From positions 1-64,000 of the forward strand of contig NBIV01000318.1 of assembly GCA_003194525.1 (NCBI GenBank): a DNA stretch of 64,000 bases. The letters run 5' to 3'. The DNA is from Gracilariopsis chorda. Lineage: Eukaryota > Rhodophyta > Florideophyceae > Gracilariales > Gracilariaceae. The notes under the pieces were generated by a model. It had not been told where the DNA came from. It saw nothing but the letters and a program-made list of their open reading frames with translations, and searched no databases. Within the stretch, counting starts at the first letter, position 1, and each line of letters opens with the position of its first letter. This document shows positions 9,736-61,815 of this stretch, in pieces. The position numbers and the translations under genes were made by a program.

Positions 9736-12375
9736 TCAGTCAATGGCCTTCGTTGCATCGAGGGTGTCTGATTCAGCGTCGTGTGCTTCTTGCCATTTGT
9801 GCGCGTCGGGGTAGCGGCGCGCTGGCTTGGTGGTTTCAGGTGGTTGGGGATTGATGGTGATGGTGGTAGGAATGTTCGGTTGGTTGCGCGGTTGTTGCTG
9901 GTGGGTCCGTTTGCGTGGTGCGTATTTTGTTTGAAGAGCTCGGTATTGTGGTCGGCAGGGGTCGAGTTCCGGGTGGTATGTGTGGGAATTAGCGGTGCGG
10001 GCGAGCTGGTATTTGCGTTTTCTGAGATTCAGAACCGCGATGAGCTTTTCATCCACAGCGTGCATGTATCGCACTGGTTCGGCCCGTCGCTGCAGTTTGG
10101 GTTTGTTGGGGAGAAGGGAAGGGATGAATCCCGGCTGCCCGAAAGGTATAATTCTCGGTATGGAGGGAGGTTTACGGTGCCAAGCGGTGAATGGTAGTTG
10201 CTTAATTGTGGGGTGGTATGTGATGTTGTACTTGAATGCGGAGTCGAGGATAGCCGGTCCCCAATAGGTATTGTCGAGTTGATTGTGATCCAAGGATGCT
10301 CTGGCTGTTCGCATTATTGTTTGATTGATCCCCTCTGCCAATGAGTTCTCCTGTGGTGTGTACGGTATCGTCGGTGAGAGTTGAATGCCGCGCTGCGTAA
10401 GGAAGTTGTTGGCGATTTTGGATGTATACTCACCGGCGTTATTGCACCGAAATAGCTGAGGGTAGTGGCCGGTGTGATTGCAAATAGTTTCGATGTGTTT
10501 CGCGATTTCATTAAAGACTTCTTTTCTTGTTGCGAGTAGCGCAATGAAAAGGTATCGCGTGGCTGCGTCAATGAATGTAATCGCGTATTTGCTGTTGTGT
10601 AGTCGCGTTGGAGGGTGGACGGGTCCAAGCACGTCGGAGGATATTTTCTGCCCTATAATATGTGTGTGCGCGGTCCGTTTGTGCGGTGCAGGTCGCAGTT
10701 TGGCCATGTGACACGCACTGCAGGATACTTTTGGCCATCCTTTAGCGATTGTGGGCGGAAGGATCGGTAGGAGTCGCTTCTCTGCCATGATTCTGATGGT
10801 TTTGGGATGGTCATGGCCGAGTTTGAGGTGCCAGTCTTTCATAAGTTTGACGGCTTTGGTTGAGTTAGGTGGTGTGTAGAGTGGGATGGTGTGCAGGCGT
10901 GGTTCGGGTGCCGCTGGGGTGCGCGGTGTGTAAAATGGGATGGATGTCGTTCGGACGCGGGGCGTGGTTTCGGCGGATGTCTTTTGTTGTGTATTGGGCT
11001 TGGGTTGTGGTGGCGTTAGTTTGTGGGGTCGTGCAAAAGTGCGGATGCCGTGAGCAGTGTAGCGTGGTTTTATTGCAGCGAGGCATGGCGTGGGTGCCAT
11101 GTTGAGCGCATATGTACCATTTGAATGTGTGGCAAACGCGACTACGCAGTTATGGTGTCGGCGATCGTGCACAAAAGCATAGTTGGGATAGAATGAGATT
11201 TTGCCGTATGTGCGTGCTAGGTCATGCACGGATACGAGGTTTGATCGAAGTGATGGCGAGTAGAGCGCTTCCCGAATTTGTAGTTGTCTAGGTCTCGTGT
11301 TGATCGTTATCTGTCCACCGTGTGTGACAGTGTGATATCGTCCGTCAGCAGTACGTGTGATTAGGGGGTTTGAGAGCGGCGTCAGGCCTCGTTTGTTAGT
11401 TATGTAGGTGGAGTTGGCGGCGGAATCAAGTGTGCATTGCTTACCGTATTGCTTGTTGTCCGGTGGGGCTTGAATGGCTTGTTCAATGGTTGTGAGGCGC
11501 AGTGCAAGTTCTTCAATTGCCGGGTTGAGGCCTTCGGTCATCTGCATGGCTTGGGCTTGCATTGGTTGTTGATTAGCCAAACGGCGGTGGACACGGCACT
11601 CGGAGGTGTTGTGGGTTCCCGATGCGTGGAAGGTGCACCACGGTACTCGCCATCCTGCGGGTTTTGGGCAACGCTTGTCTATTGGGGCACGTGGCGTGAA
11701 GGGCCGTGCTCGATGGGTGCGGGATTGTCCGGGCCATGTTTGTCGTGCAGGTGGTTGTAATGGGTGCGTAGTTGAGATACTGTTGTAGGAGTCCTCTTGC
11801 AGAAGTAATGCTTGCCGGATGTGGTTCGCGAATGACTGTATGCTGGGTGGAGGATTGCCGGTTAATACAATTGCGAGTGTGGTGAAGTCGGGATGACGAC
11901 GTAGCCCTTGAATCATGAAGTTGACTGTGGTTTCTTCGTGTTGAAAATTGAGGTAACTCGCATTGCTAATCTTAGTCTTGATGGTTTCGTGTTGCTCTAC
12001 ATATTTGTCAAGGTCGGTTCCTGGCAAAAAGAGGATGCTTCGTGCTTCGGCTTCTAAGATGTTGTGATTTTGGCGATTTTTGTTCCCGATGTGCGACTCG
12101 ATGAGTTGGAGAATCTGGAACGGAGAAAGTTCGACAAAGTGGCCTGTTAGTTTGGTTGCTATAGTCTCTGGAATGCTTTGGATGATAAGCGATTTGATTT
12201 TGTTGATTTTGGTGGTTTGAAGTTCTTGCTGAGCGGGGTCGACAGCGGGGGGGACAGGATCAGTGGTGAGCAGATTGAAGCCTTTGAAGAGTGACGTGTT
12301 GATTGTCAGTGCAGATTTCCAGAATGTGAAGTTGTTGTAAGACAGCGCCGGAAGTTTAGGTTGGTTGTTGGACAT
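9736..12375 (-). mobile_element. C1 gag-protease-integrase region
   Basis: This is one long open frame of 879 codons. It has a Copia-type gag (N-terminal 230 residues), a retropepsin-like motif TLDSAANSTYI near residue 315, an integrase zinc-binding region HLKLGHDHPKTI...CSACHMAK near 515-560, and an integrase core with SSDVLGPVHPP and a glutamate-bearing NSLAEGINQTI. It is the best-preserved part of C1. Confidence 0.9.
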
Positions 12376-12556
12376 AATGAGTGTGCGTTGGGTTGAGTCG
12401 ACAGGATTATGACTGTCTTTTGCGTTGATGCGTGAGTTTTGTAGAAGATTCTGGATGTAGTCGTGCTCGTCTCGTAGTTCAGCTCGTCGCCTTTGGCGGA
12501 TAGAGCGGGCTGTGTGAGGTGGAGCGTCAATGATGGGGCTTGTTCAGATATGCAGA

Positions 12557-17879: not shown

Positions 17880-18401
17880 GGATTACGGATCCGTGGACCT
17901 GGCTTATGATCATGTTTTAGGCCAAACGAAACTCGTCTCGCAGCCTGCTCCTTCTGAACTGCCTTTGTGGCGGCACTCGTTGATCATGCTTGTTGTAGCT
18001 GCATTTCAGGTCATCCCTTCTTTGCTGGACGAGGCAAAGCCCCAAAGACGAGTAGTGTTGGACATAGACCTTCTGGTCCGATGGTACCATTGACGCTCTT
18101 TATGGTCATTTGTAGGCATTCGTCGTTAGTCTCCAAGCGTGGCATGGAGTCACGAATGTTACTGTATGCAACACGTAATGGGGCGTGATATCTTTCAACG
18201 TGAGACATATTATAGGGAGATTCAATCGGAGCCTCAACTATAGTCATGCCATCAACTGTAGCGTTTGCTGCCAGCTCTGTGGAAACGAAGTTCGACCCCT
18301 GATCAACATGAAGAAAGTCTGAAGGTCCTAGGTACAAACGACTCCAGCACTTTAGGATAGTTTTCCACACATTCTGAGATGTCATGCTCTTTAGGAACTC
18401 A
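17880..18401 (-). mobile_element. C2 left part: integrase core of a Copia element
   Basis: The minus strand encodes integrase core motifs (FLHVDQGSNFVS, SHVERYHAPLRVAYSNIR, GPEGLCPTLLVFGALPRP). The preceding part of the same domain lies 12.6 kb away at 31049-31368, beyond inserted element H2. The reverse transcriptase expected next in Copia order is absent; sequence changes to G2 here. Confidence 0.75.
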
Positions 18402-18422
18402 GGGCCGTTCTAAACAAGCCTG
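18402..18422 (+). repeat. Left terminal inverted repeat of H2
   Basis: This is the 21-bp left end, identical to the reverse complement of 31028-31048. The adjoining TCA (18399-18401) is the target duplication. Confidence 0.9.
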
Positions 18423-18897
18423 ATCTGCTCATGTTCTGATCGGGTTTTATTGAAAGTTTTTTTTTTTCTTCTGTAAGCGCATAATCTTACGCACCCTATG
18501 CCCGACGCCGGTCCACTTTGAGATGCCCCGGCAAACACTAGCACCGCAGTCGAAAATCTCTGCATCCCCCTTGCCACGACGTCGCAAAACTCTGCACCTT
18601 TCTCTTGCCACGACTCTGCAAATCCATGCACATCTCTTGCTTCCCTTCCCAAATCCCTACACCGACCCTTTGCCACACATTCTCAAGTCTCTGCACCCCC
18701 GCATAGCCCACAATGTCCAGGATCGCAACCCCAAGCCTATTTTTCATGTCATATCCACGAACCACTTCATAAGAAGACTGGAGCCTACAAACCAGATTGC
18801 AGTCAACAGATGCTCTTGCATATCGAACCTTTCTCTCCGCGCATTGAATCCATCACTATAGGTGCAACCCTTATCCTTCTTTTTTATAGTTTACACG
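18423..18897 (+). other. H2 5' region before the transposase
   Basis: There is no clear gene. The part from about 18550 to 18700 repeats a pyrimidine-rich phrase of the CTCTGCAxxxCTTGCCAC kind at 40-50-bp intervals. A pyrimidine tract ending TTTTTATAG at 18879-18889, just before the transposase ATG, could be a splice acceptor. Confidence 0.35.
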
Positions 18898-20111
18898 ATG
18901 GAGTTGCAACCTCTCTTTGAGTTGCCAAAGTCGCAGTCGATGATCGAAGAGTTTGCTGCTGCTTCTTGTGCGGTCGTAGTAGGACATATTGCTACCCAAA
19001 ATAATCAGAAAAGGAAAGCTAATGTCATGCATATGCCGTTTCCCCTACGGAAGGACATAACCTTCGATGGTATTGCTGCAATACTGAACGAGCGATGCTT
19101 CAAACGCGCATTCCGGGTAAGTAGAGATTCTTTTTATCGTCTTCTGGATTATGTCAAACCATCAATATCTAAGGACACTAGCATGGGGACACGTTCTGGT
19201 AGAACTACAGTTCCGGCCGATATTCGGCTCGGAATTACCTTACGGATGCTAGCAGGTGCTAGTTATCTTGATGTAATGATGTGCTTCAGAGTAGGCGCAT
19301 CTACGGTGTACGACATATTTCATGACACATGTCTGGAGCTTATGAAGGTGATGAAGCTACCAGGACTACCAACCTCATTTCAAGGGCTCCACAAGCTCTC
19401 TCAGAGTTTTAAGTACTCTCGGTCTTCACCAAGTCCTTTTTCCGGATGCATTGGAGCACTGGACGGAATTTCAGTTCGCATTAGAAAGCCCGCACGATAT
19501 CTTAACCCAGCAGCGTTTTACTGTCGAAAAGGATTTTATGCCCTTCCTGTGCAGGCTTTGGTAGATGGATCTTACCGTTTCCTCAGCTATTCAGCGCGAT
19601 GTGTGGGCTCAACACATGATGCTCTCGCCCATGCAGTGTCCAGCCTTGGTAAGTTTTTGGAGAAACATGGATTACGTTCTGAGTTTTGGATCGTGGGTGA
19701 TGAGGCATACGTATGTACAGAAAGCCTTATCACCCCGATACCTCTTTCCCAACTGGTAGGTCCATATGAAGATGCATTCAATTTCTACTTATCATCGTTA
19801 AGGATTCATGTAGAGCAGGCGGAATGGTTGTGGCTAGATGGCGAATCTTACAGAACACGCTCCAGTACTCTGTCTACATCAGCGCACGGATCATATGCCT
19901 GTGCATGAAATTGCACAACTTTTGTTTAGAAAATGGGGAGCAAAATGTAACGAGATTACGGCAGGAAGAAAAGGTTCAATGCGAGATTGAAATACAGAAC
20001 TGGTATGCTTGTTGTAAAGAGGACAACAACATGCAAGTGCTGCAGCACAACCATGGCCGGACCCAAGGTGTCTCGAGAAAAAGGGAAGAGCTGGTATCGA
20101 TTATTCGCTAG
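18898..20111 (+). pseudogene. PIF/Harbinger transposase of H2, one frameshift
   Basis: The ATG at 18898 (MELQPLFELPK) is preferred over earlier non-ATG codons. The N-terminal half has a helix-turn-helix-like region (RLGITLRMLAGASYLDVMMC, then a VGASTVYDIFHDTC helix). The catalytic domain shows GALDGISVRI (Asp 1), FWIVGDEAYVC (Asp 2) and RIHVEQA (Glu). After a frame slip near 19820 the known continuation follows in another frame (ARWRILQNTLQ, CMKLHNFCLE). The slip falls just after the catalytic Glu, where the usual FG of EQAFG is missing. It is otherwise near full length at about 400 residues. Its substrate would be the 21-bp ends of H2. Confidence 0.85.
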
Positions 20112-20419
20112 AAAGAACTCCGCCGCCCCTCCCTCTATGGTGTCCCGCAAGATGAAAGGGAATAAACGATCAATGGCACACCACGGCGAACATATACTCT
20201 CACTATGACTGCCCTCCACTCACGATAGTGCGCGAACAATACGTTCTCCGATCCCCCACCGAACATCCCCTCCTCGATGTCGCATGCCAGCAACCGCCGC
20301 AGGATGACAACGCCGCCCCCTGTCGTCCACGGAATCCACGGCAGTGTAGACAACTTCAATGAATACCTGTGATGGCATGTTAGAAACGTTCACAGGGAGT
20401 CATTCACCCTTTTTTCGTT
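20112..20419 (+). other. Junction between transposase and captured Mot1 copy
   Basis: This is about 300 bases with no recognisable gene. The left capture breakpoint of the Mot1 copy must lie here or just after; homology to Mot1 is first visible around 20425. Confidence 0.35.
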
Positions 20420-23400
20420 TTAATACAAAGCCTCACTCCCATGTTAGATCCGTGGATGCATGCAGCATGTCAAGAGACGAGAGCGGAAGCAGCGTCAGGT
20501 CTCGATATCCAAAAAACAAAAGTTAGGAATTTGGCAATGGCAAATCGGAGGAAGGCAGCAGCGGCCAGACAAGCTGCAAAACTGAAGGCTTCGGAGGGGA
20601 TCCGAATCCTTATTTCTCAAACAGTTCAAGATGGGGACTCCGCTTCCGCCGTCGAAGGACGTTATGATTTTTCTGTCATACACCAGAAGGTTGCCGCTGC
20701 CATTGGGTCCCTAGCTGCAAGATGGCCATCCGATGAGCTTTCCCTTCTGTCGGTCTTAGGAAAGTATCTACGGAGTGAGTTTTTCAGGGCTAGACAACTC
20801 GCTTGTAAAATATGTGAAGTATGGGCTCTGAAGTCCAAGGATGCCTTGTATGTACTACCAGACGAAATAGCTGCATCTATAAGAACGCTTTTGTCACCTA
20901 ATGCGAATACGCTGTTCTCACTCTTCTGTCTCCGATGCGTTTTCGATGGCATATCCATCTGGGGATGGCAGCTTATGGCTACTCCTCTGTTTTCTTAGTG
21001 AGGAGTGATGCGGACAACCCTCTGTATCTCCATGTACCGGTTCGACATCCTCATCTTAATGTTTGTGAAGTCGGTAGTAGCGCATGTCGATTCGAAGAAA
21101 CTAACTAAGTCTTAGCCCCATATCCTTCATCCAGGAGAGGCATAATATCAGATGCATTCAAAGTGATCTGCTGTTACGATAATCGGGAAGTTGAATCTTT
21201 GGACGGACCGTCTCCTGATACCGTACGCATCGCACTGGCTTGAACAGAGCCATGTTTTACATGTTGTTGCGCAGAACCAAGGTTCACGTATTTCTTGATT
21301 CAACTTTGCTCTGTTCAGTTGTTACAAACCATCTCAAAATGGAAGCATGGTGCACAAAGCAAACCCTTATCCGCAATTGATCCTCTGAGTTTCTGATACA
21401 CTAACTCGCGCATTTTTCTCCTCCTTAGCGGGATCCACTGCTTCTGCAGTGTTCACCGTCATACGTGGGCATCCTGGCCTCATGAGACGGGTCCAACTTT
21501 GCAACGAAGCTACTCACGCCAAACGAAATGAAAACAGCGAGTGGATCTCCAGTGAAGGCCGAAGGTTTTGAACCAATCGTCGAGAAGAGCCGTGAGAATT
21601 TTTCGGAGAGGAGGCAGAACCGATTATAACTACGAGAAAATGATCTCGGGAGCTTGGCTTCCTTGAACGCTTGAGAGTTTCTCAACCAAGATAGATCTAT
21701 CCGGATTCTTCCATGGGGCGTTCTGAGCACACAAGGATAAGCGCTCAAGCACTGCTTTGTGCAGAAACTTCTATTCCACTACAAAACCGGATAACCCAAG
21801 TCCAGTCAGACTCCTGTTCGAGCCATTCCAGTTTGCTGCGATTAGAAGGTGCGATGAATAGATAGGTATGCCGGCGGTTCCTCTGTTCTCGGACACAAAC
21901 ACGTTCTTGGAAGCAGTTCCCACCAGTCTGAACGCCTTTAGGAAGGACATTTTGAAGCTCAAGGATAACTGACAAGAGGGTAAGCGCTATGTTGGGAAGT
22001 CCAATCTCGCCCATGCTGCTTTCAAGGGTAACGAATTTTGGATAGACATGAACGATTTGAACTTGGGGAACACCTGAAAGGCGACGAACACGGACGTGAA
22101 GCATTCTGGAATGCAGAAACGGCAACTTGAGCCTATCTCGGCTCTCCGAATGCGACTGAGTCAGTCCATTACATATCTGGAGAGTCGCGAGGAAGATCTC
22201 ACCATCTCCACCTCTGTATGCGCCGTAGCAGCCATCGTGGTGGCTAGCGGTATTCCCCTGCCTCCTAAAGTTGGCCTTTACATCAAATTGTTGATGGCTG
22301 CACTGCGAAAGCCTTGCAATAGGCATGTCCAGACTCATGCCACGGACTCAATCGCAAGACTAGCTCTTCGTCTAGCTGCACGTGATGTGAAAAAGGCGAT
22401 TGATCTTATGATCAAAACCTGATCAAGTACGCGACAGCGGAACAAGAAACAAAAGATGAGAAGATTATGGCATCCATGATTTCATCCGCCAGATACAAGC
22501 GGTCACCGGGGGCACTTGTAAAGCGGGGAGCATTGTATGCATTTCGTGCCTTCTGTGTGCAATTCAATGGGCATTAGTTTTCAACTCTATCTTCATTCTG
22601 GAGTCGCATAAGTGGTCCTTTGAGCGCATGCCCAACCAAGGTACAGATCCAGGAAGTGGTAGAAGCGTTAAAACCACTACGTGCAGTGGTTTTGCATGCT
22701 AGTCAGGACCTTCATTCAACCATCATTGATCTTATATATCCGATTATCAGGATATGTGCATCACCGCATGAAGATTATGTGTATCACGCACCGCGATTTC
22801 TAGCCGATGCTGTCACAACTATGCCAGGGCAAGGAATGCAGATATTCGTGTCAGCGCTTGTTACATTACGCTTGGAGATCGAGCAAGACAAGGATGCCGA
22901 CCGTTTTGCTCGTCGACGCGCAGCAAAGGCGCTACGGGCAGTTGTTGACTGCCTTGGTACAAAAATAATTCCTTACTCAGCGTTTCTCATAGTCCCCATG
23001 ATGACTAGAATGGTTGATGAAGATGAGATCGTTCGAGAAGCAGCTGCATGGGTGTTTGGAACTTTGGTACGTCTGATGCGTTTGGAAGGAAGCGATCCAG
23101 ACGATCCCATGATGAGTGAATCAATGTCTTGAGAACGAGAAGAAGCAGGGAGCGTTCTTGGACGATTATTGGGAAGCGAATGTCGCCAACATTATGAAAT
23201 ACCTGGGTCTATTGGTGATGACATACGACTGCGAAAATATCAGCAGGATTGCGTTGACTGGCTAGAATTTCTTAATAAGTACGGTTTGCACCGTGCTTTG
23301 TCTGATGAGATGGGGCTTTTAAAGACTCTTATGACGCTTTGCATACTCACAGGCGACTATGCTGCAAATATGAAGAAAAATCGGCATCTGCCATCCCTAC

Positions 23401-24406
23401 TCGTTTGTCCGAACACAATCCTGGCTCACTGGGTACAAGAAGCGAAAAGCGTAATCGGCCATGTTCTCCGAAGCGTCATTCACTGCGCTGGGCTTTCCAA
23501 AGCACGGTCACGTACACGAAGCCGAAGCGTACTAAGATATGCCTCTATAATAGCTACAAGCTATGAAATTCTGAGCATGTTCTTCGATATTTTAAGCACA
23601 TCCGTTGTAATTACGTCGTTCTTGACGAACGCCATGTGATCAAGAATGCGAAAACCAAGGGAACCAGGGCAGTTCGAAGCCTATCCTCAAATCACAGATT
23701 GACACTAACAGTAACTCCTATCCAGAATTCGGTCATCAAGCTTTGGGCTATGTTCGGTTTTCTCATGCCCGGTTTTTCGGGTATTGAGAAGAACTTCAAA
23801 GACACGTATGCAAAACCGACAATGGCTGCAAGAGAAGGGAAATGTAGCGAGGCAGATCAGGAAAAAGGAATGGCAGCAGCAGCATCGCTTCACAGGCAAG
23901 TGTTACCGTTTGTTCTACGACGGTTGAAGGATGAAGTATTGTCGAAACTGCCGCCAAGGATTATGCAAGACTACTAATGCAATATAACACCAATTCAGTT
24001 GCGACTGTACGAGGACTTAGCATCAGATGCTCTAACAATCCCAAGTTCAAATCGAGCTCGACACAGAAAGGGGCGGAGAAGGAATCCAAAAGTCACGTGT
24101 TCCGAGCACTATGCTATCTTCGTCGTCTATGCAGCCTTCCGAAGCTTGTACTTTCTCCGAGACATCCTGAGTATCACTCGGTTCACGACGCTGTGCATCG
24201 CCAAGGCCAATAAATCGATGATATAGAATCGAGTGCGAAGCTACTTGGACTAAGAAATATTCTACAGGAGTGAAGTATTGGCCTAGATGAAACGGTGATG
24301 AGGGACTCGTAAGGACATCGAGTTCTCATCTTTGCTCAGCTAAAGCAAATGCTTGACATTGTTGAGAAGGACCTCTTTGATATGTATATCGCAAATGCTG
24401 TTGTGA
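20420..24406 (+). pseudogene. Mot1/BTAF1 TBP-associated ATPase, C-terminal half, broken copy (part 1)
   Basis: Mot1/BTAF1 is a Snf2-family ATPase that strips TATA-binding protein from DNA. The copy starts mid-protein (MLDPWMHAA) in the HEAT region: AAAIGSLAARWPSDELSLL, VVASGIPLPPKVG (22096-22422) and CLGTKIIPYSAFLIVPMMTRM (22620-23132). The ATPase follows: LRKYQQDCVDWLEFLNKYGL, DEMGLLKT, PSLLVCPNTILAHW, LDERHVIKNAKTK and PIQNSVIKLWAMFGFLMPGF, then HRVLIFAQLKQMLDIVEKDLF. Walker A should be DDMGLGKT and Walker B DEGH, so both are altered. Most of helicase lobe 2, roughly 100 residues between VEKDLF and MYIANAVV, is missing. Frames change repeatedly (near 21000, 22420, 23130, 23640, 23980). The N-terminal half of Mot1 is not in the window. 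Confidence 0.85.
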
Positions 24407-24416
24407 AGCGAGAGAA
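24407..24416 (+). repeat. LINE target-site duplication, left copy
   Basis: AGCGAGAGAA here recurs at 28585-28594. The duplicated site lies in Mot1 coding sequence (codons for KRE). Confidence 0.8.
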
Positions 24417-24526
24417 GGGCACAAGCGATCCGCCTTCACGTGGTGTGCCTGTCTTCTCGCAAGAGAAGCGAAACGGATCTGCGGTTGGGTCTCCAACGGA
24501 GACCAGCATAATTCAGGCTGTGGAAG

Positions 24527-27500
24527 ATGAAAAAATCCAAAAACAACAGCGAAAGAAGAACATTACGCTTACTCCAGCTTAACTGCAGGAGCTTACTTGC
24601 GACAGGGAAACGAAGCGAGATCGACCGCTTAGCTGATGCTTGGAAGGTGGACATCCTTTGTCTTCAGGAAACTCACTTCCAGGAGTTAGATCGGACACCT
24701 CGAATCCAAGGTTTCAAGTTAGTAGGAAGATGTGACAGAGATGCCGACTTTGGACAACAAGGAGGAAGGGGAGGAGGAGTGGCAACGTATCAACGAGACT
24801 ACCTCACAATAGACCTATTGACAGACGAGCCAATTCAGAAAGGATTAGAGAGAGTGACAGTACTAGTCAGGTCTCCAAAAGGTCCGCTCTCAATTGCTAA
24901 TGTATACGTTCCTCCACAACTGCACGCTACAGAGTGGTACAAGGCATTGGACGACCAGGATATGGCAGTAGCCGACAGCAACACATGCGGGTCGTGGTAT
25001 CCATCAAGGGCGGAAGCTTCTGGAATCGCATTAGAAGAGTACCTCGGAGAAACCGAACGCGTCGTCCTCAACGTAGATGGGGTCGCAACCCATACGGATC
25101 CAAGGCATGGAACGCAAAGTGCGATAGATATAACGGCGATACCAGAAAAATGGGTTCCGCTAACCACATGGGAGGCATCGGACCTTCCATTTTCAGACCA
25201 TCACCCGTGCCTTATGTCCATAGATATTGGGCGTAAGTCTTGCGTCCAGAAGAAATGGAAGACTTGGAGTATCAAAAATGCTGACTGGACCAAATTCCAA
25301 ACGTACGTAGACGATAACCTTAGCATGATTGAAGATAATAGTATAGAGAGCTTAGACGAACAGTATCATCGCTTTTGCGAAGTAGTGCTAGGAGCAGCAA
25401 GGATGCATGTACCATTTGGAAGACGGAGACGCGAAGCACCATGGTGGAGTCCGGAAGCATCGGAAGTGATCCAGCTGAGAGCAGAGAAATGGAGAGAGTA
25501 TCGAAACGATCCGAGTGCAGGAAATAGGTTAGCATTACAGCAGGCCCAAGAACATGCGGGAATAGTTATTGACAGACTCAAACGGGATGCATGGCAGGAA
25601 CTCACAAGTTCACTACACCCAAACGATAATGATGCAAAGTTATGGCGAATAACGAATGCAATTGAAAAGAGAAAATGGGAACGTCCATCACTTTGTCCTC
25701 CAGGGGGCGAACAATGGTTTGATAAGAAGAGAGCGAAGTGGTTTGTCAAATCAGAGATCAGAAGTGTGCGGACACACGTCAAGAACAGAACAGTGAGAAA
25801 CGAGTACAGACGGGAACTGGACACATATCATAAACATGCAAAAGAGTCAGTGATAGGGAAGGTATTTCAACCTCAACACCTTGATGTGGAGTTGAGAAAT
25901 ATGACCCCGAAGAAGGTACGAGGCCCGGATGAGATACAGATAGCTTTCCTACAGAATCTTCCTCCAATTGGAAAAGAGTGGCTACTGCACCTTATAAACA
26001 GAAGTTACAAGGAAGGGCGGACTCCGGCAAAGTGGAGATTATCCCGACTCATTCCAATTCCCAAACCAGGCGTCAAGGGAAAGTTTCGGCCGATATCTCT
26101 CACATCGGTCGTGGCAGGGCTTGCGGAACGGATGGTTAACAGGGAATTCATGAAATGGTTGGAACCAAAACTCCCTGCATGTCAAGCAGGATTCAGAATG
26201 AGCCGAACGACAGACGAACATATTGCTGCCTTTTGCAAACATATAACGCATGGCTGGCAGCAACTCCGACAGACATTAACACTTTTCTGTGACTTCTCTA
26301 AGGCTTATGACTGCGTTCAACATCACCGACTGTTAGTAAAGCTGGCAAATCTTGAGTGTCAGACTTACCTCTGGAGATGCATAAGAGCATTTGTAATGGA
26401 CCGCAGACGGACTTGCAGATGGAACACAGCTGATACCAGACCTTATGTAGTAGCTCAAGGTCTACCACAAGGCGGGACTCTTTCCCCAGGACTATGGCTT
26501 GCATATGTGTCGCAGATCTTCCCGAGCGAGTGCATCAGGGTGATTCAAGAATTGCGGTAACAATGTTCGCTGATGATGTATCCATATCAGTGACACAACG
26601 AAAACTGGATTTCTGTGCCCATATTATTCAATCTGCAGTACAAAGACTGGAGCAATACTGCGAAGAAAATAACATCAAGATGAATCCGAAGAAAACCACA
26701 CTAGTTCCGTTCACATACGCACAATGGAAAAAAGACCGTACCAAGTACGAAGTACAAGTAGCTTGAACGTGGATAGAGCTTTCAGGTTTCACGAGATTTC
26801 TAGGAGTCATCATGGATAGCCGCCTTACATTCCACCATCATATACACAAGTTGGCTGCACGGTACAGGTCACGGTCGCGCATTCTTCGGTGTCTAACTGG
26901 AACCACGTGGGGGGCAGACTGGGTGACCATGCACGTATTTAGCATGGGTTTCGTTGAACCCATTGCAAGGTATGCAGCGTGCGTAGTCATATCGAATGCT
27001 CTATCTTGTGCAGTACAAGAATGGGAAAGAACCCGAAATGAAGCAGCCCGAATTCAAACAGGCTGTACACGATCTTCCCCAGTGAGAAAACTTAGAAACC
27101 TTTTGAGTCTACCCTCTCTTCAAGAAATTGCGGCTGCACAGGCAGCACAGTTATACGAGAAAGCGAAACGATTTCGTGCAGAGGATCCAACACCTATTGC
27201 TTTAGCACTTAACAGAGAGTCTTCGGCACGTATTCGCAAGAACAGGTCGTCATTCAAGAAGACAGCAGAGCAATTATTGGCTGAATGTGGTTTTTTGCAG
27301 CTCAACAGAGCACCACTCCCAACAGAGCTAGGCTTGGGCCAAACAGGAGGCATCAGCTTCTGTTACACGTCATGCACTAAGGAAGATTCGGTTGAACATC
27401 AGCGGTACCAGGCTCTACAAACATTGAAAAAGCTCCCACCGGCCGATTGCGAGATCTGGAGTGATGGCTCAGTGGGGCGACCGAAGTGGCTTCAAGAAGC

Positions 27501-28551
27501 ACAACCGTTACGAGCAGCTGTGGAGTGGGACGAAGGATGGTACGCGGGATCGGTTGATTATCCAAACAGCTTCACGGCCCATGCAGAAGTTGTTTCCAAC
27601 TTTCAAAACAAACATAATCGGACACCGAGTATAGTGATACGATATGACGATGGATTTGTAATGGGATACGAAATAGACGCTGAACATCAAGAGTTACTCG
27701 ATGCCGATGGACATAAGCTTAAATGGCGTGTACTTAACATTTCCGAGGTTGGGGGAAGTGCTTTTGCGATCTGGTGGAATGCATCAATTACCCCCCAAAC
27801 TGGCATGGAGCCCGCAGGGATAGGGACAACGTCGTTTTATGCGGAAACATGGGCGATATATCACTCACTTCAAGTTGTTAAGGGAAGAATAGGATCTGGG
27901 TGGACTGGACACATAAGGCTGATAACGGATTCTCAGAGCGTGGTTGAGAGTATCCGAGGAGCTGTAAGAGATCAGCCGTATTCTGTGCAACAAGTATCAC
28001 GTACATTGTACGAGATCGGCAAAACATGCACTATGGATATGGTCTGGGTACCGAGCCATTGCGGTTTGCACCGCAACGACCTTGTAGACAGTTTTTCCAA
28101 AGAAGCATTGGAACTACCTCAGCATTTGCAGATAAACGTGCCAGTGGACTACGCAGAAGTGAAACGAAGAGTGAAGTCTCGAAAACGATGTAGGAAAATT
28201 ATTCAGTCTATACCTCAGGAGCTCACACAAGTGGTATCGCAAAGAGAAGCGGAAGTTACATTGTCGCAGTTTGCAGTAGGCCATACACCTCTTTTGCACC
28301 CGCTCGGAACGCACTTGTACAAGCGAAGAATCGTGTGTACTTGCCGACCGGGAGTACTGAATGATGTGGACCACTTTGTTCTAAGGTGTCCTTTGCGAAC
28401 AAGGTCTCGCCGAACCTGCCTGCCAAGTATGCGAGAAAGACACGGGATGGATGTTGGAGAAATCATCAAAAAGTGGCCGGAATGTATGCTGGTCTTCCTA
28501 GCGAGAGAACGCTTTTTTCACATGAAGCGATCTACACTACGTAGGAATTAG
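24527..28551 (+). pseudogene. LINE polyprotein: AP endonuclease, RT, RNase H, zinc finger
   Basis: The ATG at 24527 opens the endonuclease (LLQLNCRSLLA, ILCLQETHF, SDHHPC near 25195). The RT follows: RLIPIPKPGVKGKFRPISLT, FCDFSKAYDCVQHH, GLPQGGTLSPGLW and MFADDVSI. The RNase H begins IWSDGSV (about 27457) and continues GGSAFAIWW, YAETWAIYHSL, LITDSQSVVESI and WVPSHCGLHRNDLVD. The C-terminus has a CCHC finger, CTCRPGVLNDVDHFVLRC. Between SDGSV and GGSAF lies an extra in-frame segment of about 92 codons with Tudor-like character. Damage: a frame slip near 26508-26515 between GLWLAYV and ADLPERVHQ, and a TGA at 26764-26766. All else is open, so it is recent relative to the Mot1 copy around it. 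Confidence 0.88.
27475..27750 (+). other. Tudor-like segment inserted in the LINE RNase H domain
   Basis: About 92 in-frame codons separate the first RNase H motif from the second, far more than usual. The segment reads VEWDEGWYAGSVDY, a spacer, then IVIRYDDGFVMGYEI. The order acidic-W-Y-G-V followed by a V-x-YDDG strand is the signature of Tudor/SMN-like folds, which bind methylated histone or protein tails. That is a motif judgement, not a search result. Confidence 0.45.
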
Positions 28552-28584
28552 ACTGGTGTACCCGTAAAAGAGAGAGAGAGAGAG

Positions 28585-28594
28585 AGCGAGAGAA
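28585..28594 (+). repeat. LINE target-site duplication, right copy
   Basis: This is the second copy of AGCGAGAGAA, directly after the (GA)n tail and before resumed Mot1 coding sequence. Confidence 0.8.
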
Positions 28595-28823
28595 CTCCAA
28601 TTTTCAATCCATGAACACGGAAGACTTGCTAGACTTGTTCAATGCAGATAGTGCTGAGGCCTCATCCACCAACGACTCATCGCTTGATATCAGTGTCGGA
28701 ACTGGAAAGGGCATGAAGGCTGCTTTGGCAGGGCTTGGGTAACGTTGGGAAGAAAAGCAATACGAGGATGAGTACAACATGAACAATTTTTTTGCTAGGA
28801 TGGGCACATCAGGGAGTACGTGA
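28595..28823 (+). pseudogene. Mot1/BTAF1 C-terminus (part 2 of the captured copy)
   Basis: It reads NSNFQSMNTEDLLDLFN, then GKGMKAALAGLG, then RWEEKQYEDEYNMNNFF before a final TGA at 28821-28823. This is the conserved Mot1 tail: the TDQLLDLF-type motif and the acidic YxxEY-xxNF end. A TAA at 28740-28742 interrupts the frame. Its presence beyond the LINE shows that the gene was continuous to its natural C-terminus before the LINE arrived. Confidence 0.85.
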
Positions 28824-29227
28824 TTTGTTGATTCGGAGCCTTGGTGGAAAAGTAGGCACATTCTAGAGAAGCGTACTAACTGATTTCCTGCTGCCATTTG
28901 CACAACGGCTTTTTCGTATGTGGGAGACATGAGCTGCAGCAACTATGATGGTAGCAGTCGTGCGGTTTATGTTTGTCTTTAGTACACGGTAAGGGCGTCG
29001 ATCGTATCGCGATAGTTCAACAAATTTACTTCGTATAGCACTAAGATAAAGATTGCGGCCCGCCTCCACCCGGCGCTAAACGCCTCCGCAATTTCGATGA
29101 GTAAGATTAAGCCAAGCAGTTATCAAGAAATCCCACCAGTACCCGGCTCCATGAGCCGATGAAAGATTCTGTAGGATAGACACAAAGAGAGCAAAGTTCG
29201 TAGTCCTTGTTAGTAAATGTTCATCGA
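28824..29227. other. No gene recognised
   Basis: This is the spacer between the Mot1 tail and the 3' end of the accessory gene. The right breakpoint of the captured segment must lie here. Confidence 0.4.
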
Positions 29228-30727
29228 TTATAGCTCTGATGCTTTCGAAATTAGTTGGAACGGTTGCTCTATGTTCTCGAGTGCCTTACGCGCATTCTCA
29301 ATAAAGATTTGGTTGTTCTTCTTCTGCGCTCGCTCGTATCGCATGGCGCTCTGCTCCAGAAGTTCCATCATCTTGTTTTGGTTTTCCAGTCGTTTGAGAA
29401 TCACATTCTCGTCATTCTCATCTACTTCGCTCTTCGATCTCTCGTACATCATTTGATCCCGCAAAAGTTTTGTTCGAGCCTCCGAAGCAGATCCAAGGCG
29501 GTCCAGACCCCTCGAAAGATTATCAACTTCTGATCGTAAATCGCAACTATCCCTTTGTGATCGTCGCCTACGCTTTCCGCTCGATTCCTCGCTCTCCCGA
29601 CCAGTTGGTATGCCCTCTTCGTACCCTGCATCATCGTCGCCGATTAGCTTAGTGGTCATCTGCAGCACTTTTGTGTCTTCATCTTTAGTTCCTAGCCTGC
29701 AGACTGTAAAAAGAACATAAACACGTTTAGAATCAGCAGTCAGATCTCCATTACCTGTATACTGTAGAAAGTCTGGAACCCGAGAACTATCATTCTGACC
29801 AGATGCGGACCATCGCTCGCGGAAAATTGTAAACAAGCGCTTAACGTGGTTGAACTGGTTTTTCAGAACCATAGCAGTGCGAAAACAAATTGGGCGCTTG
29901 TTCGAGTCCACTTCATCCCCTCGACCGCGAAAATTTTCCTTGGTGTCCACATTCGCATCATTGAATCGATGCTCAACCACTGTCCAAAACAATTCCCTTG
30001 TAATATTGGCATCCAGCTGCATTCGTGACAGCTCAGCGCCAATTGCAGTATACAATGCGGAGCGTGCTCGCTCATTGTCCCGGAGCAGTACGCAAAGTCG
30101 AGCAAATTCATGCAAAGTGAATCCATGACTTGCTGCTTTATCCGTCGCGTGTTCGCCGTTTTGAGCCTGTTGCCCACCGTCCTCATACGCATTCTTCCTT
30201 CTCACTTCTTCCCGGCGAATCATTTCCTTTACTACTTTCCGCTCTCTCTCCGGCACTGCGTCTAGCAATGATTGAACTGATGGCAGCTGGTTTTACTCCT
30301 GATCTCGCGCAATTGCTGCATGCTCCCATGAAATAAATGCCTGGGCGGCTTCACTTTTCGAGATCCAATGCTGCAAAGTTTTTCCTTTGAAGCTTTCAGT
30401 TAGTAAAAAGAGAAGCAAGCGCGCAATAAGTTCTGTCTTGTTCTTGTGGCTACACTTGAGCTTCCATCCTTTGTTGAAAGCTCGCAAAGTCTGCGTGCTT
30501 TGTGGTGTGAGATATGTGTAAAATCGTTGTAGTCATGTAGATTCTGAAAAGGCTGCGAACGGAGTTTCTTTGTCGTTTTTTTGGATTACCTGTGAAGTAG
30601 CGGTTTGTTTAAGATCGGATGGGCTCCACTGTGTGCTACTTTGCGGGACAGAGTCTTGTAGAACTGCGGAGGACGGATGTTTGCGAGGGCTGCGGCGCAG
30701 AGATAATGGTTGAATCAAGTCGGACAT
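29228..30727 (-). pseudogene. SAP-like, coiled-coil accessory protein of H2, two in-frame stops
   Basis: A single frame of 500 codons runs from ATG 30727 to TAA at 29228-29230, interrupted only by TGA at 30533-30535 (codon 65) and TAA at 30293-30295 (codon 145). The leader is basic (SLRRSPRKHPS). Around codons 79-110, TLRAFNKGWKLKCSHKNKTE followed by a leucine-rich helix fits a SAP-type DNA-binding helix pair. The C-terminal third is a heptad-rich coiled coil (LENQNKMMELLEQSAMRYER). PIF/Harbinger elements need a second DNA-binding protein besides the transposase, usually Myb/SANT-like; position, orientation and architecture suggest this is the equivalent. I know no named family for the whole protein. 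Confidence 0.6.
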
Positions 30728-31027
30728 GGTGCTGTGATGAAAATTGGTAAGGCGCGCATTCCGCTGGTTACCTATATTGCAAGGTGGTGCAAGGGGAGCG
30801 TGAGGTGCGCTGCAAGGCTGATGTCAAGTGGACTTAAGCAAAACACGGCGGTCCAAATTTTTGAACTTGTGCAGTTGGAGCATGCCAAGTGGTCAAATAA
30901 GGTCATGGGTCATGTAACGCCATTACAGTTTCGTCGAGCAGGGGCAGAACAGGGTCAAGCAGGCCCATTTCAAGAAATTCGGGAACTGACCAACCAGCAG
31001 ACACGATTGGGCGATCAGAAGTCCGAG
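30728..31027. other. H2 right subterminal region
   Basis: There is no gene. This is presumably the promoter of the minus-strand accessory gene plus subterminal sequence leading to the right inverted repeat. Confidence 0.4.
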
Positions 31028-31048
31028 CAGGCTTGTTTAGAACGGCCC
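31028..31048 (-). repeat. Right terminal inverted repeat of H2
   Basis: This is a perfect reverse complement of 18402-18422. The adjoining TCA (31049-31051) is the target duplication. Confidence 0.9.
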
Positions 31049-33600
31049 TCAGCCGCGTTGAAGTGAGTAGCTTCATCTACTAGATTTCGTACAGGTCGAC
31101 TATTGATGTACATCACATCTACAGTGACAATGTGGTTGAAACAAAGATCATCCGTGCCAATGGTAACTTTAAAACGGTGTAGCTTAGCATCGTTTTGGAT
31201 GCAGACCTCGCAATCACGGAGAATATTCTCAAGAGTCTTGCATGTAAAGCTGTCTAAATCTTCAGGGTTTGCACGCTTAAGCAAGTAGTAAAATGGTTGA
31301 ACCGAGGGGTGGCCAAATACGGGTTGGAGCTTCTGAAGCTCTGATTCAGTGTAAAGCGCAAAAACCAAATCTACAGGCCTCCATCGGTGAACAAGAAAGT
31401 AGTTCTCAATAACTAGGTTCTGTTCTGCATTTGAACCTTACAACTTCTTCCTGAATACTGAATTCCAATCCGTTGTCCTTCATGTCCTTCATGCTCAGTT
31501 ATAACGGTACAATGTCCTTCATTATCTGGAATGTGAAACCTATCACTAGGTCGAGGTTTTTGAAAGGAACGGGAACTATCGTAAGGCAAATGGCGTTGAT
31601 TGTGCCACTAATTCCGAACATTGAGCGGCGTGAATCAATATCTATGTTCATCAGAACGTTGAATTCCTCGCAGTATGCTCGATATTGAGCGTAGGACATG
31701 ATTGAAAACCTGTTGGTGCATGTGTCGACCAATATTCTTTTAAATCGTGGGGCTTCTCCCATAGACAGAGCAGAGAGCAAAGCTGCCGTCTCCGTTTTAA
31801 GGTCTGTAGAAAACGTCCTCCCATGTACAACGGAACAATTAGCTATGTAGGTTCCAGTCTTCTTTTGAAGGTTGTGATCATGTACAGCAAGATACACATT
31901 GTCTTCTGCATCAAATCCAAAAATTGAGCCTCGGTTCCGTTTTCCGTGTTCTCCAAAGTACTATCCAGTTGCTCGGAGATGTAGGCTACATCCTTTACAC
32001 TGAGCATTGCGGATGGATGAGTAGATTTCAGAAGTTTGATGGCTGCAAGAACCTCCTCCGGGGGGTGGCGCGTGTAAGCTATGTGGGTTTTACCACAAAC
32101 GTAGCATCCCTTCAGTCCTTTGATCCCCCTTGACGAAAATCGACGTAATCATTTGTAACGTGCATGGAGGCGTACTGTGCCATTATATCTACTCATTTCG
32201 CCATCATATCTCCTGCCAAGACTGTCAAGTGCCACTTTTTCGTTTACTTCCTGAGTGATATAGGAGTTCCAAGATGTCGGTTGATGTGATAGAAAAGTTG
32301 AAGTACGATTCATTGCCTCTTGCGCGGTCTTTGGCACGTGCTCGCGGAGAGATTGTTGCATGGGATGAATGTCGCAGGAGATCACAAGCTGGTCTTGGAG
32401 TAGATTTTCGTGGTGATAGTTGACTGACAACTGTTTCTAAAGAGTAGATAGCTTAAACGAAAATGCTCGAAACACCTCCGCTTCGCTCTTCTCAGGATCT
32501 TCTCTCATGGCTTCCGCGAGCTTCATCGTCTGCCATTGTAGCAGAACACTACTATGCTGCTTTTCACTAGTGTAGAAGTAGAAGAGCTTCTGTCGAATAC
32601 TGTCGAAGCATTCTCCAGGACAATAAGTCCGGGTATAATATGACAGAGCCTCTTCGTTCAGCATAATAGGGAGGGCTTCAGCCTTTTCATCCTCTCTGAG
32701 ATTGAATACGCAACACAGAGTTTCATACAACAGGAATGCGGAAGAGATGTCCTCATCATATTTGCCACTGAATTTTTCGCGGCCTTGATAGGCTCGCATC
32801 AAGCCATTTATGCGAAGAGAGTAGCTATTCATACCATTATAAGGATTCTGCGAAGGGCTGTTTGGAATAGCTCTGGTCCGAACGATAACTTTAGCATCAT
32901 CAGCTTTAACGTTGCTATAGGATATGCGTCTTTAGTCTGGTAGTGTTTGATGCTCTGCAATTTGTTGACGAGCAGGAAACCTAGGCATGGTAGAAAAACG
33001 AAGTGGTTCACGTTTCACAGCTTTCTCAGGTACAGTATACTCTGGTATGACTGCATTAGCCACTTAAGAATCGTGATTGACGGTCTCAAGGTCCGTTTTT
33101 GGGCTCATATTTCCACGCGTCTCAGTTCTGGATCCCATAAGCTGGCTTTTCGTACCAGCGACAGCTGTTGCTGGAATGAAATTCTACTGAAGAAGGCATT
33201 CGATGATTGCCTGTGCGTGCGGGAAGAACCGCCTTCGCGTTACATGCACACCATGGGATAACAGAAACGCAACCGATCTCTGTGCTAGTTGCTTTGGCAT
33301 AGCCTCAATCGTGTGCATATGAAAGGTCGCAGTGCACTCGAACCAGAGTGCCTGCCGAGTGAACCCAGTGAATTTTGACGCATCGAGCATACTCGTACAA
33401 TACTCTTGATTTTAATCTTGGTAGGCGGCTTTCTCAGCAGCAGTAGCTAATAATGGCGGTGGATCTGTATCATTGGCCTCATAGTTCACGGGGCATGTCG
33501 GATTTAGTAAAGGTGCAGTGATCGGGAAAACATTGGTTGGCACAGCGCTGCTTTTCGCGGGCGAGTTTGGTGCGCTATGGAACGATTCTTGTCCAGACAT
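31049..33600 (-). mobile_element. C2 right part: Copia-type gag, protease and integrase N-terminus, broken
   Basis: On the minus strand, gag starts near 33600 (MSGQESFHSAPNSPAK) and spans to about 32150 with a Cys/His knuckle (CYVCGKTHIAYTRH near 32040-32110). A retropepsin region lies at about 31500-31900 (ILVDT, then SIMSYAQYRAYCEEF). The integrase zinc-binding N-terminus and the start of the core lie at 31049-31368 (FGHPSVQPFYYLLKRAN, DCEVC, VDVMYINSRP). The gag-protease-integrase order indicates Ty1/Copia. It was split by H2; its remaining part is at 17880-18401. Roughly ten breaks; older than H2. Confidence 0.75.
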
Positions 33601-39201: not shown

Positions 39202-42200
39202 TCACCTGATCGATTCAGTGGCTTCCACAACGAGCGCACGGTCAATCGTGCCGGGTATTCCCGTTCTGATACGGTGGTGATACTGCACGATTTTCGGTCG
39301 GGGCAAGTTCTCTACCGGTTCGTCCGTGTCATGGGACGGTAGGTACCCATACCAGCGTACCGGGTACTGAATATATCCCTCTGGGTTGTAACTGTGCCCG
39401 AAAATACGGTCGATAATGAACTCCTTCGAGTAAACATCACGCTTTGCGGTTCCGGTTGCAGTCCGCACGACGGTAGTTTCCGACGGCGGAGCCGGTGATG
39501 GCTCCGTCCAACGGTTCCTGGCGCTCGCTTGCGGCGTCGGCCACGGGATTCCCTGATGAGGGTAAACTGAATCCCTCGTTGAGGTTGAGTTTACCCCATC
39601 GGGTTCGGGAGATCGTACCGCTAAACTGCGAAGGCTTCCTCGTCCCATTTGTGACGGTTGGCGACGGGGAGGCGGTTCATGGGCCACGGCACGTGCCGGT
39701 TGGCGAGGCGTATCCAAATGGTTGGCTGTCGTCATCTTGTATTGCAGAGCTGTGTCACCATGAGTGGGTGTGCGGTGCACATCTCGCAACACGTGGCAGT
39801 CGGGCTCTCCTGCATATGCAGTGTGGGCCACCCCTGCTGGGGTTGACGCAACCAGTCTTCCACTACTGTGAGCTGAATCCAGATGATCTGAGCTGCTCGG
39901 TACAGTACCAGAGAGACTTACTCTGATGAGAGACGATTGAAATTCAGATAACCCATCTGTGGGACCATGAGCATCCCTTTGCGAGGGTATAGAAGCGTCC
40001 TGTACGTCAGGGTTCCATAAGTCGGGATCTGCCGTGACTTCTTTAGTCTGCGCTGCAGCGGCGGGGCTTCTTACGACATCCTCGACGGCCGTCGGTGAGC
40101 GGGGGGCCAACGGAGCGTCCGGGTTCTGAGCCAGGCTTCCTGCGTCCACTCCTCCAATGGGAGATGATACAACAGCGTCCGTGTCCGGTTGCCTTGACAG
40201 CGTCTCGCGAGTGCTGTTGACAGTTCGCTCGCTCGACGGAGGTGACTGCGTAGCGTGCTCACGAGGCTGCCCATCAGCGGGGCCGGTCCTTCCAGTCTGC
40301 TGAGTTAGTTCCACGCGTGCGGCGGTAGCGTGCGATGTCCCTACTTCAGGTTGTCGTGTCTCACGAGAGCTTACCAGAGCTCGCGATGGCGGTGTAGACT
40401 TCCCCAAAAAGCGGGATTGACTGGCCTACTCCCCCTCCTTAGCCGGGGCGGCGAGAGGGCTTGAAACAAAGTCTGACGGTGGTTCGACACGCGGCGTAAA
40501 GCGTGAACGAACGTGTACCGGAGTTTCCGAAGATTGCTACGACAGCATCGGTATGTCCGACAGTCCTCTCGACGGGCGCGCAACGCTAATTGCGCGGTGC
40601 AAGGATCCTGCTGCGGCAGTTGGCATCAATTGAACGTCCGGGGTTCCGGGAGCAGAAACGACTTCCGAATGCGGGTAAGGGGCTCGTTCGACACGATCAC
40701 GGCTGAACCGTTCCTGAGAATCACCAACGTCCAGTACAACTGTGTCTCGGCTCACCGAAATGACTTTGTAGGGGCCATCCGCAATGGGCGACAGTTCGTG
40801 GCGTTTCTCCTTCTCAGGGTTGTAGTATTACTTCATGACGAAGACGAACTGTCCTGCTTCCAGCGAGGGAAGGGGCCGACGGAGTCGGGCATCGAAATTT
40901 CGTTGATACGCGCGTTGCGCTCGCTTCATTGAATATTTCGTGACCGGGACCATCCGTGTTAGCCAATCCTTCCATCGGAGGTAATGATCAACCGTTGACG
41001 GGTACCTGTCCTGCGTTGACTGCGAATCTATCGCCACAGGCGGCGGCGGACGCGAGAGCACCAGCTCGAAGGGTAATAAGCCGGTTACTCTGTGTACCTG
41101 CGTATTATACGCGTATGTCACGGTATCGGTGTACAAATCCCAAGTACGGGGGTGCTCAACCGTATATGCACGCAGAGCGGACAACAACGTTCGGTTAAAC
41201 CATTCCACCTGCCCATTAGCCTGGGGATGGTATTTCTTTGTAAACAGATTCCTGATATCAAGTATTCTACAAACGTCTTGGAAGAAACGCGCGGTGAACT
41301 GCGGTCCGTTGTCGGATAAAAGACTAACCGGTGGACCGTAGACGAGAACCCAGTGACGGACGAATGCTTCGGCCACTGAACGTGCGGTAATCTTCTTCAA
41401 CGGTACAGTCCGGACGAGTTTGGAGAACCTATCCGTTATTACGAGTAGAAGCTTGTTACCACGTGAAGTGTGAAGGAACTCACCGAGGATATCGATAGCG
41501 ACAAGTTCTAACGGGCCCCGTGCCGGGAACAGGGTCAACGTCTTCGCATAGCGGCGCAGTTTCACTTGTTCACGAGCACAGTGAGTACAATACCAAACAA
41601 TCGCGTAGCAATCCAACGCAAGTGCGGGCCCGTAAAAATGCCGACGTAACGTCGTGTAGAGCCTCCTTCCACCAGGGTGTGCAGCTAACTTCGAGAAATG
41701 CGAGAGATGCAATACTCTTGACTGAAGGGAATGGGGAACCACTATTTGTGACGAAGAAGACCCAGTCCTTACCAATTTACCTTGTGAGTCAACTCCAAAA
41801 GGAATGTGAGCCCCTCCATTGAGTTGGGCACGAATCTTCGTATAAAACGGGTCTCCATACTGTTCGCGGATCATCTCTTCGGGAGTGATCGGTGCGAAGG
41901 ATCCGGTATCCGGTTCGCTACCGTCAGCGACGAGCAGATCATCAACAATGTCATCTGAAACCAGATCATATCTTGAACTCGCTTCAAGGAGGAAACAAGG
42001 GATATCATCGTCATTGACGGGAAGGGTTTCCGCATCGGTTCCTAAACGAGACAGAGCGTCAGCCTGGTATTTAGGGAACCCTTTTTATAGAAGACTTCAT
42101 AATCGAACTCAGCGAGGCGTAGTCTCCAACGCATCAGGCGACCGGTAGGTTCCGTGACGGACATTAACCAACGCAAAGCGGAGTGGTCCGTATTAACGGT

Positions 42201-61713: not shown

Positions 61714-61815
61714 CATTGAACGCAACAGCGGATGTGACCTTCCTATAACAATCAGAATAGTCAACAAACTATCACAATAACTATCACCAAAAACAAACCA
61801 AAACATAAAACGATA

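Follow-up and report, generated by a model that had tools for sequence, protein, structure and literature searches.

Positions 18402-31048 of the 64,000-nucleotide stretch of Gracilariopsis chorda DNA analysed here (the whole stretch is hereafter called the window) raise the question of how a piece of the host gene Mot1 came to lie between the ends of a DNA transposon, and what has become of it there. The first-pass annotation had described this segment as a single 12.6-kb Harbinger-type element carrying a captured C-terminal half of Mot1/BTAF1. Our analysis indicates that a two-gene PIF/Harbinger-type element very probably took up DNA of two host genes, Mot1 and a BIG/Sec7-type ARF guanine-nucleotide exchange factor (ARF-GEF), and multiplied it, and that this cargo then decayed. 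The genome searched comprises 91.3 Mb in 1081 contigs, labelled here by C-numbers. The element and its parts, in window coordinates, are:

18399..18401, no strand: target-site duplication, left copy, TCA
18402..18422, plus: left terminal inverted repeat (TIR), 21 bp
18898..20165, plus: Harbinger-type transposase gene (DDE_Tnp_4), by profile match
20211..20348, plus: remnant of the captured BIG/Sec7-type ARF-GEF gene, 5' end (native gene from about C260:86211)
20349..20917, plus: captured Mot1, first part (native C9:451086-451653, 92%)
20918..21861, no strand: 944-bp insert nested in Mot1 (another copy, apart from Mot1, at C124:22692-23647)
21862..24379, plus: captured Mot1, second part (native C9:451660-454180, 92%), with frameshifts, stops and GLGKT changed to GLLKT
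24386..24416, plus: captured Mot1, 31-bp piece up to the long interspersed nuclear element (LINE) (native C9:454502-454532)
24407..24416, no strand: LINE target-site duplication, left copy, 10 bp, AGCGAGAGAA
24417..28584, plus: nested LINE with endonuclease, reverse transcriptase, weak RNase H and a GA-repeat tail
28585..28594, no strand: LINE target-site duplication, right copy
28587..28915, plus: captured Mot1 C-terminal end, with the stop region and 92 bp past the native stop (native to C9:454853)
29228..30729, minus: the element's second gene, facing the transposase in convergent orientation; probable ORF1-type partner
31028..31048, minus: right TIR, 21 bp
31049..31051, no strand: target-site duplication, right copy, TCA

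Borders, ends and copies of the element

The two TIRs are identical at all 21 bases and are flanked on both sides by TCA, as the first-pass annotation had stated. Counting the window, at least 15 genomic sites match the left 299 bases of the element and at least 15 match the right 348 bases; both numbers are lower bounds, since only the best candidates were scored. An ungapped scan detected the TIR in 20 of the 23 end loci fetched (it was missed in L007, L019 and L021), and the TIRs are free of mismatches in all seven copies with both ends read. A 3-bp target-site duplication of the form TNA matches on the two sides in six of these seven copies (TCA in the window and C74, TGA in C24, C82 and C236, and TTA in C10). 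Because they recur in this way across the genome, the ends are not a product of chance. Furthermore, once the duplicate is removed and the two flanks in the window are put together, they align with four paralogous sites that are uninterrupted (C72, 97%, positions 1-270 of 270; C159, 89%; C30, 81%; C230, 77%).

Positions 18402-31048 are one PIF/Harbinger-type element of G. chorda with exact borders. The earlier description as a single element of 12.6 kb holds, given the shared TIRs, the duplications and the empty sites, although about 40% of this length was added afterwards, by a LINE of 4.17 kb and an insert of 0.94 kb. Similarly, the flank that had been read as a disrupted integrase region is firmly an interrupted repeat, in view of the empty sites, but the integrase match itself is weak (rve, E 0.052, below the cut-off). 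The assignment to PIF/Harbinger is based on the short TIRs (21 bp), the 3-bp target-site duplication and a DDE transposase of the DDE_Tnp_4/Plant_tran kind. TTA/TAA form the majority of PIF target duplications in rice and maize, according to a published report (PMC8903248), and compared with these the range in the G. chorda element (TCA, TGA, TTA) is wider.

At C236:66642-91907, we also observed both ends of one copy lying about 25 kb apart and in rearranged orientation, yet with TGA at each.

The element's own genes

The transposase matches PF13359 with E 3.9e-17 in the window and 2.1e-27, over the full model, in the sister copy in C82, and its match to PF04827 is below the cut-off. In the window it carries a frameshift near 19840, which we take to lie just past the third catalytic region, and one stop near 20109; the sister copies in C82 and C10 have an uninterrupted frame of 435 amino acids.

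The convergent gene runs for 354 amino acids up to one internal stop in the window and forms a 531-amino-acid open frame in C82, C74 and C24. No Pfam match above the cut-off was obtained for it, and neither Myb nor any other domain was detected. Its sole database match is a distant relative, P0121 (source name IDg3439t1), and P0142, a match of the transposase, is IDg3440t1 from the same source; these consecutive gene numbers suggest that the same gene pair exists elsewhere. Another 45 transposase/partner pairs occur in G. chorda. The gene seems to encode a second, ORF1-like protein belonging to the element itself, and a second gene, ORF1, is described for PIF/Harbinger elements in the accessible part of an earlier report (PMC2836001). 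The copy in C82 combines the 435-amino-acid transposase frame, the 531-amino-acid partner frame and a Mot1 piece. The open frames suggest that transposition may still be possible.

The captured Mot1 segment and its native donor

The Mot1 segment in the window is not the native gene, which lies intact and full-length at C9:449107-454761 as one open frame of 1884 amino acids, and which is 100% identical, over the 1533 amino acids searched, to 'putative helicase mot1 [Gracilariopsis chorda]'. A comparison with the native locus had been proposed as one way to check capture from the host, and it bears capture out. In a profile search, the window segment gave DUF3535, HEAT and SNF2 matches, and its best match in the PDB is a 'Helicase-like protein' of 1847-1897 amino acids, which we take to be Chaetomium Mot1. 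The identification as the C-terminal half of Mot1/BTAF1 stands on these matches and on the 92% DNA identity to the native gene, but the frame is broken.

Window-type Mot1 DNA is found in 20 contigs; leaving aside C9 (the native gene) and C124 (the 944-bp insert only), 18 contigs carry captured Mot1, a number that includes short pieces (293 bases in C154) and in which C223 and C806 possibly represent a single locus. The older copies in C273 and C165 match the native gene without a break from C9 450532 to 454853 and from 450525 to 454854, respectively, and C2 starts at 450532. On its right side the captured segment ends at C9 454852-454854 in the window as well as in C273, C165, C244 and those window-type copies that extend so far; in C223 and C806 it ends earlier, at 454809.

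A second captured gene

Upstream of Mot1 the copies in C273, C2 and C165 contain coding-like DNA whose intact relative lies on C260. The native C260 protein has DCB, HUS, Sec7 and HDS domains and is, by this domain content, a BIG/Sec7-type ARF exchange factor. Relative to the native Sec7 stretch fetched, C2 holds bases 12-258 and 1671-2692, C273 holds bases 43-258 and 1671-2692, and C165 holds bases 2040-2694. The Sec7 fragment alone gave no match in Pfam or the PDB, its identity coming from the intact native gene. Further fragments were found in C130 and C149 by the genome search, which did not return the window; the remnant in the window was recognized by local BLAST (79% over 144 bases).

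The Sec7/Mot1 junction is common to C2, C273 and C165. At this joint a 5-bp microhomology, GTCTC, is present in both donors, and a few additional bases stand there in the copies. The window-type copies keep about 140 bp of the first part of Sec7, joined to Mot1 at native position 451086, and C130 has this same joint without the 944-bp insert. The captured Sec7 part is the 5' end of the gene and begins upstream of the ATG. The captured unit derives from two host genes, the Sec7 part being fused to Mot1 in the older copies. The first-pass annotation, right about Mot1 as a captured host gene, had missed the Sec7 remnant, together with the LINE and the 944-bp insert.

We considered whether a chimeric Sec7-Mot1 protein had been captured, and rejected this. 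By eye, C165 meets stops in the Sec7 frame at the joint, the frame in C2 and C273 is not in phase with that of Mot1 there, and the Sec7 ATG is altered in all eight element copies aligned.

Nested insertions and copies without Mot1

The 944-bp insert is absent from C9, C273, C165, C2 and C130 and is present without Mot1 in C124; no clear inverted ends were found in the edges inspected. The LINE, which splits the window segment corresponding to native C9 454502-454853, has an exact 10-bp duplication. It is common to the window and C171, and its site is empty in seven Mot1-bearing copies (C82, C236, C10, C126, C149, C21 and C106). Eight further long matches to the LINE occur in the genome (94-96% protein identity), three of them inside sister elements (C24, C74 and C171).

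C24 and C74 have no Mot1 and a LINE shortened by 99 bases at its start; they retain the Sec7 remnant and still end at the old Sec7/Mot1 junction. Both copies show the identical deletion joint, with a 3-bp overlap GTG, at different target duplications, which indicates one deletion product that later moved. Copies holding only the transposase and the accessory gene had been proposed as proof that Mot1 was added to the element; C24 and C74 would mislead in this respect, since they are deletions. The shared deletion joint and the retained Sec7 remnant led us to reject them as the ancestral pre-capture state.

Proposed history of the element

Some 45 bp separate the transposase stop from the cargo, and some 310 bp separate the cargo from the stop of the partner gene. 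We propose that host DNA entered a short region between the 3' ends of these two convergent genes. The DNA taken is the 5' part of the BIG/Sec7 ARF-GEF gene together with the 3' portion of Mot1, including 92 bp past its stop. Template switching between unlinked templates while a break in the element was being repaired, guided by microhomology, is the likely route, since the pieces seem to be genomic DNA and a short microhomology is found where the donors meet; this may have been one event, which we tentatively prefer, or two. The enlarged element would then have continued to transpose, bringing Mot1 pieces to 18 contigs. In the branch of the window, most of Sec7 and 0.55 kb of Mot1 were presumably lost (deletion rather than gain being the direction we favour), after which the 944-bp insert would have entered Mot1 and the LINE would have landed near the Mot1 end. 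A further 0.3 kb was presumably lost as well, before or after any of these steps, and beyond the shared junctions the order given is likewise our reading. One later copy would have lost Mot1 again and still spread.

Related pairs of the two genes are informative on the state before capture. From 119 transposase and 116 partner matches we picked 47 rows each by eye. The resulting list is incomplete (the Mot1 family, most partnerless hits and C56 are left out, pairs more than 30 kb apart were dropped and some neighbours were merged), and the gaps are stop-to-stop estimates from partial protein hits. Outside the Mot1 family, it contains 45 convergent transposase/partner pairs with gaps of 0.32-20.8 kb; 16 of the 45 are under 2 kb and four are at 0.32-0.46 kb. 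These four distant small-gap pairs are better evidence for an addition of Mot1 than the Mot1-less copies. Several gap sizes recur (two pairs at 0.32 kb, three at 1.146 kb, four at 1.69 kb, three at 4.32-4.33 kb, two at 4.48 kb and three at 7.376-7.380 kb), as if each subfamily had inherited its own filling; duplicate contigs are another possible source of equal sizes. Large slots might simply hold nested retrotransposons; of 3380 reverse-transcriptase candidates 150 were scored, one of which lies in a slot (C53), and, by eye, none of 70 LINE matches lies inside the 45 slots. It is conceivable, though we hold it only tentatively, that the slot between the convergent genes was filled repeatedly with host DNA that was then multiplied, Sec7-Mot1 being one of several fillings. 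If other slots hold host genes too, they would form a natural set of independent captures in one lineage.

Decay of the cargo

Stops interrupt Mot1 in all 13 copies translated, and frameshift indels occur in 15 of the 18 Mot1 alignment rows. The window differs from the native gene by four single-base indels, all of which are common to C82, C10, C236 and C171, the copies printed. The motif GLGKT, which we take to be the Walker A motif, reads GLLKT in the window, C82, C236, C171, C10, C126, C149 and C106, and is otherwise altered in C21, C273, C165 and C223. Ten of 12 comparisons with the native gene show differences spread evenly over first, second and third codon positions (p > 0.05; for the window 80/81/92, p 0.6). 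The tree, from which C130 and C1004 were omitted as too short and for which C106 was merged from two hits, places native Mot1 on a branch of 0.008 near the centre, with the copy lineages radiating from it. Judged from these substitutions and indels, the cargo gives no sign of a maintained protein function and is decaying neutrally, C165 excepted.

C806 and C223 differ by nearly nothing other than indels (10 frameshifts against none; branches of 0.0004), and C806 is possibly an unpolished duplicate contig of the C223 locus. Indels unique to a single copy may, on this contrast, be sequencing errors.

Several observations speak against the history of capture, multiplication and decay proposed here. 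The pre-capture state was not found within the Mot1-carrying family, and the small-gap relatives are only about 36-60% alike in protein. The duplications of C171, the other 12.65-kb copy, are unequal (TGA/TCA). C130, C223 and C244 have no frameshift indel in their aligned parts, stops being present in C223 and C244, and C244 retains GLGKT. The codon-position test is marginal in C21 (p 0.031) and clearly uneven in C165 (C165:145333-148428, locus L057), where differences from the native gene are in excess at third positions (212/178/296, p 1e-7). Third positions lead in all nine windows along the length of that comparison, and p is below 0.05 in all 12 codon-position comparisons of this copy. 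Either C165 was once constrained, or its Mot1 has another history. Lastly, divergence from the native gene ranges from 7.6% in the window to 16.2% in C165, a more than two-fold spread, so that a single capture date needs unequal rates.

As a cause of the unequal branch lengths we considered decay of the type produced by repeat-induced point mutation (RIP) or methylation, and rejected it: C-to-T and G-to-A changes make up 28-37% of all changes, which is no bias.

Alternative explanations

The cargo might act as RNA, if read-through of the convergent genes produced sense and antisense Mot1 RNA that silences native Mot1 or the element itself. Transposase and partner do both point toward the cargo, 775 of the 5635 native 21-mers are present in the window (1581 in the ten examined copies together), and the window shares an identical run of 142 bases with native Mot1. 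However, a recent common origin alone explains the shared 21-mers, and the old copy C165 shares few of them (108), and we regard this role as unlikely.

A somewhat slimmer chance attaches to the Mot1 piece being a 5'-truncated retrocopy of Mot1 mRNA put into the element by a LINE. The piece is indeed truncated at its 5' side and ends 92 bp past the stop, and a LINE adjoins it; the lack of introns is uninformative here, since native Mot1 is one open frame. Nevertheless, the poly-A expected of a processed pseudogene is missing from the right junction of all five copies inspected (the window, C273, C165, C244 and C21), which makes genomic DNA, not mRNA, the simplest source. The LINE itself arrived later; it has a 10-bp duplication of its own, and its site is empty in seven sister copies. 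The adjoining Sec7 part, being a 5' gene end from upstream of the ATG, is the opposite of what priming at a 3' end yields. Capture probably took place at the DNA level.

It is very improbable that the Mot1 piece serves as a working cargo gene, for instance as a truncated Mot1 that aids the element. Its presence on 18 contigs, the third-position excess of C165, typical of past constraint, and the GLGKT kept in C244 are what one might cite for it. Against these stand the stops in every translated copy, the frameshift indels, four of them shared by the window and its relatives, the change to GLLKT in the window and seven relatives together with the other changes in four copies, the equal change of codon positions in nearly all comparisons, and the continued spread of copies without Mot1.

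The idea that the inverted ends are those of two unrelated insertions around a native Mot1 locus could draw on the unequal duplications of C171, which have no counterpart in the window. It is refuted for the window by its matching duplications and paralogous empty sites, by the intact native Mot1 elsewhere, and by the perfect TIRs at both ends and matching duplications of C74, C24, C82 and C10 at other sites, so that neither circumstance named beforehand as fatal to capture (two insertions, or a native locus) obtains.

Relation to known cases of gene capture

A Mot1 fragment in a Harbinger-type element had been called new by the first-pass annotation, but capture of gene pieces by PIF/Harbinger elements is already published for grapevine PIF elements (PMC2528002), Turmoil-1 of Caenorhabditis elegans (PMC2572040), and maize and rice (PMC8903248); the comparisons below refer to the accessible parts of these reports. 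Like the element studied here, grapevine Pifvine-3 is a PIF/Harbinger element with captured host sequence, including exons, in a family with ORF1 and transposase regions, and its capture is common to several copies, which indicates that transposition was not stopped (PMC2528002). Its extra DNA lies in a long 5' region, whereas that of G. chorda lies between convergent 3' ends, and its host is a flowering plant and not a red alga (PMC2528002). Turmoil-1 likewise has a Harbinger-specific transposase and pieces of two unrelated host genes at neighbouring places; however, its capture was into 760-bp inverted repeats and it is described as one complete copy and eight fragments (PMC2572040), in contrast to the short TIRs, the internal position and the Mot1 pieces on 18 contigs in G. 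chorda.

The Pack-PIF elements of maize and rice also have host coding DNA between Harbinger-type TIRs, multiplied by transposition (PMC8903248). The G. chorda element has a host gene fragment between its TIRs, but it is not a Pack-TYPE element, which would be non-autonomous and without transposase (PMC8903248), since the transposase gene is kept and, in C82, both the transposase and the partner gene are open alongside the cargo. A fungal hAT element with histone H3 offers a further parallel, a housekeeping gene having been captured and multiplied as dead copies with the native gene intact; that element belongs to the hAT superfamily and its copies were killed by RIP, as far as the accessible part of the report goes (PMC6710886), unlike the unbiased changes in G. 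chorda.

A literature search on red algae, Gracilariopsis and Mot1 capture gave no report among the matches listed. The kind of capture is already known, and the present one is a well-resolved case in a host phylum without an earlier report among those matches. As this one genome still contains the intact donors together with an older form holding both genes, a trimmed one and the insertions that followed, breakpoints and much of the sequence of events are directly legible, and the microhomology joint between the two donors bears on the mechanism of capture.

Other features of the window and flanks

Outside the element, positions 39202-43331 on the minus strand carry LTR (long terminal repeat) retrotransposon genes for reverse transcriptase, RNase H, integrase and a chromodomain, presumably in the domain order of the chromodomain Gypsy type. 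A copia-like 935-amino-acid frame at 9736-12543, also on the minus strand, gave weak integrase and Pol_BBD matches, below the cut-offs. Rfam and tRNA scans of the window returned nothing. A 302-amino-acid frame with C2H2 zinc fingers occupies positions 61738-62646, and, beside the element copy in C24, a 357-amino-acid frame in the flank (L012 3-1073, minus strand) looks like a cytochrome b5-desaturase, an assignment that we assume from its motif.

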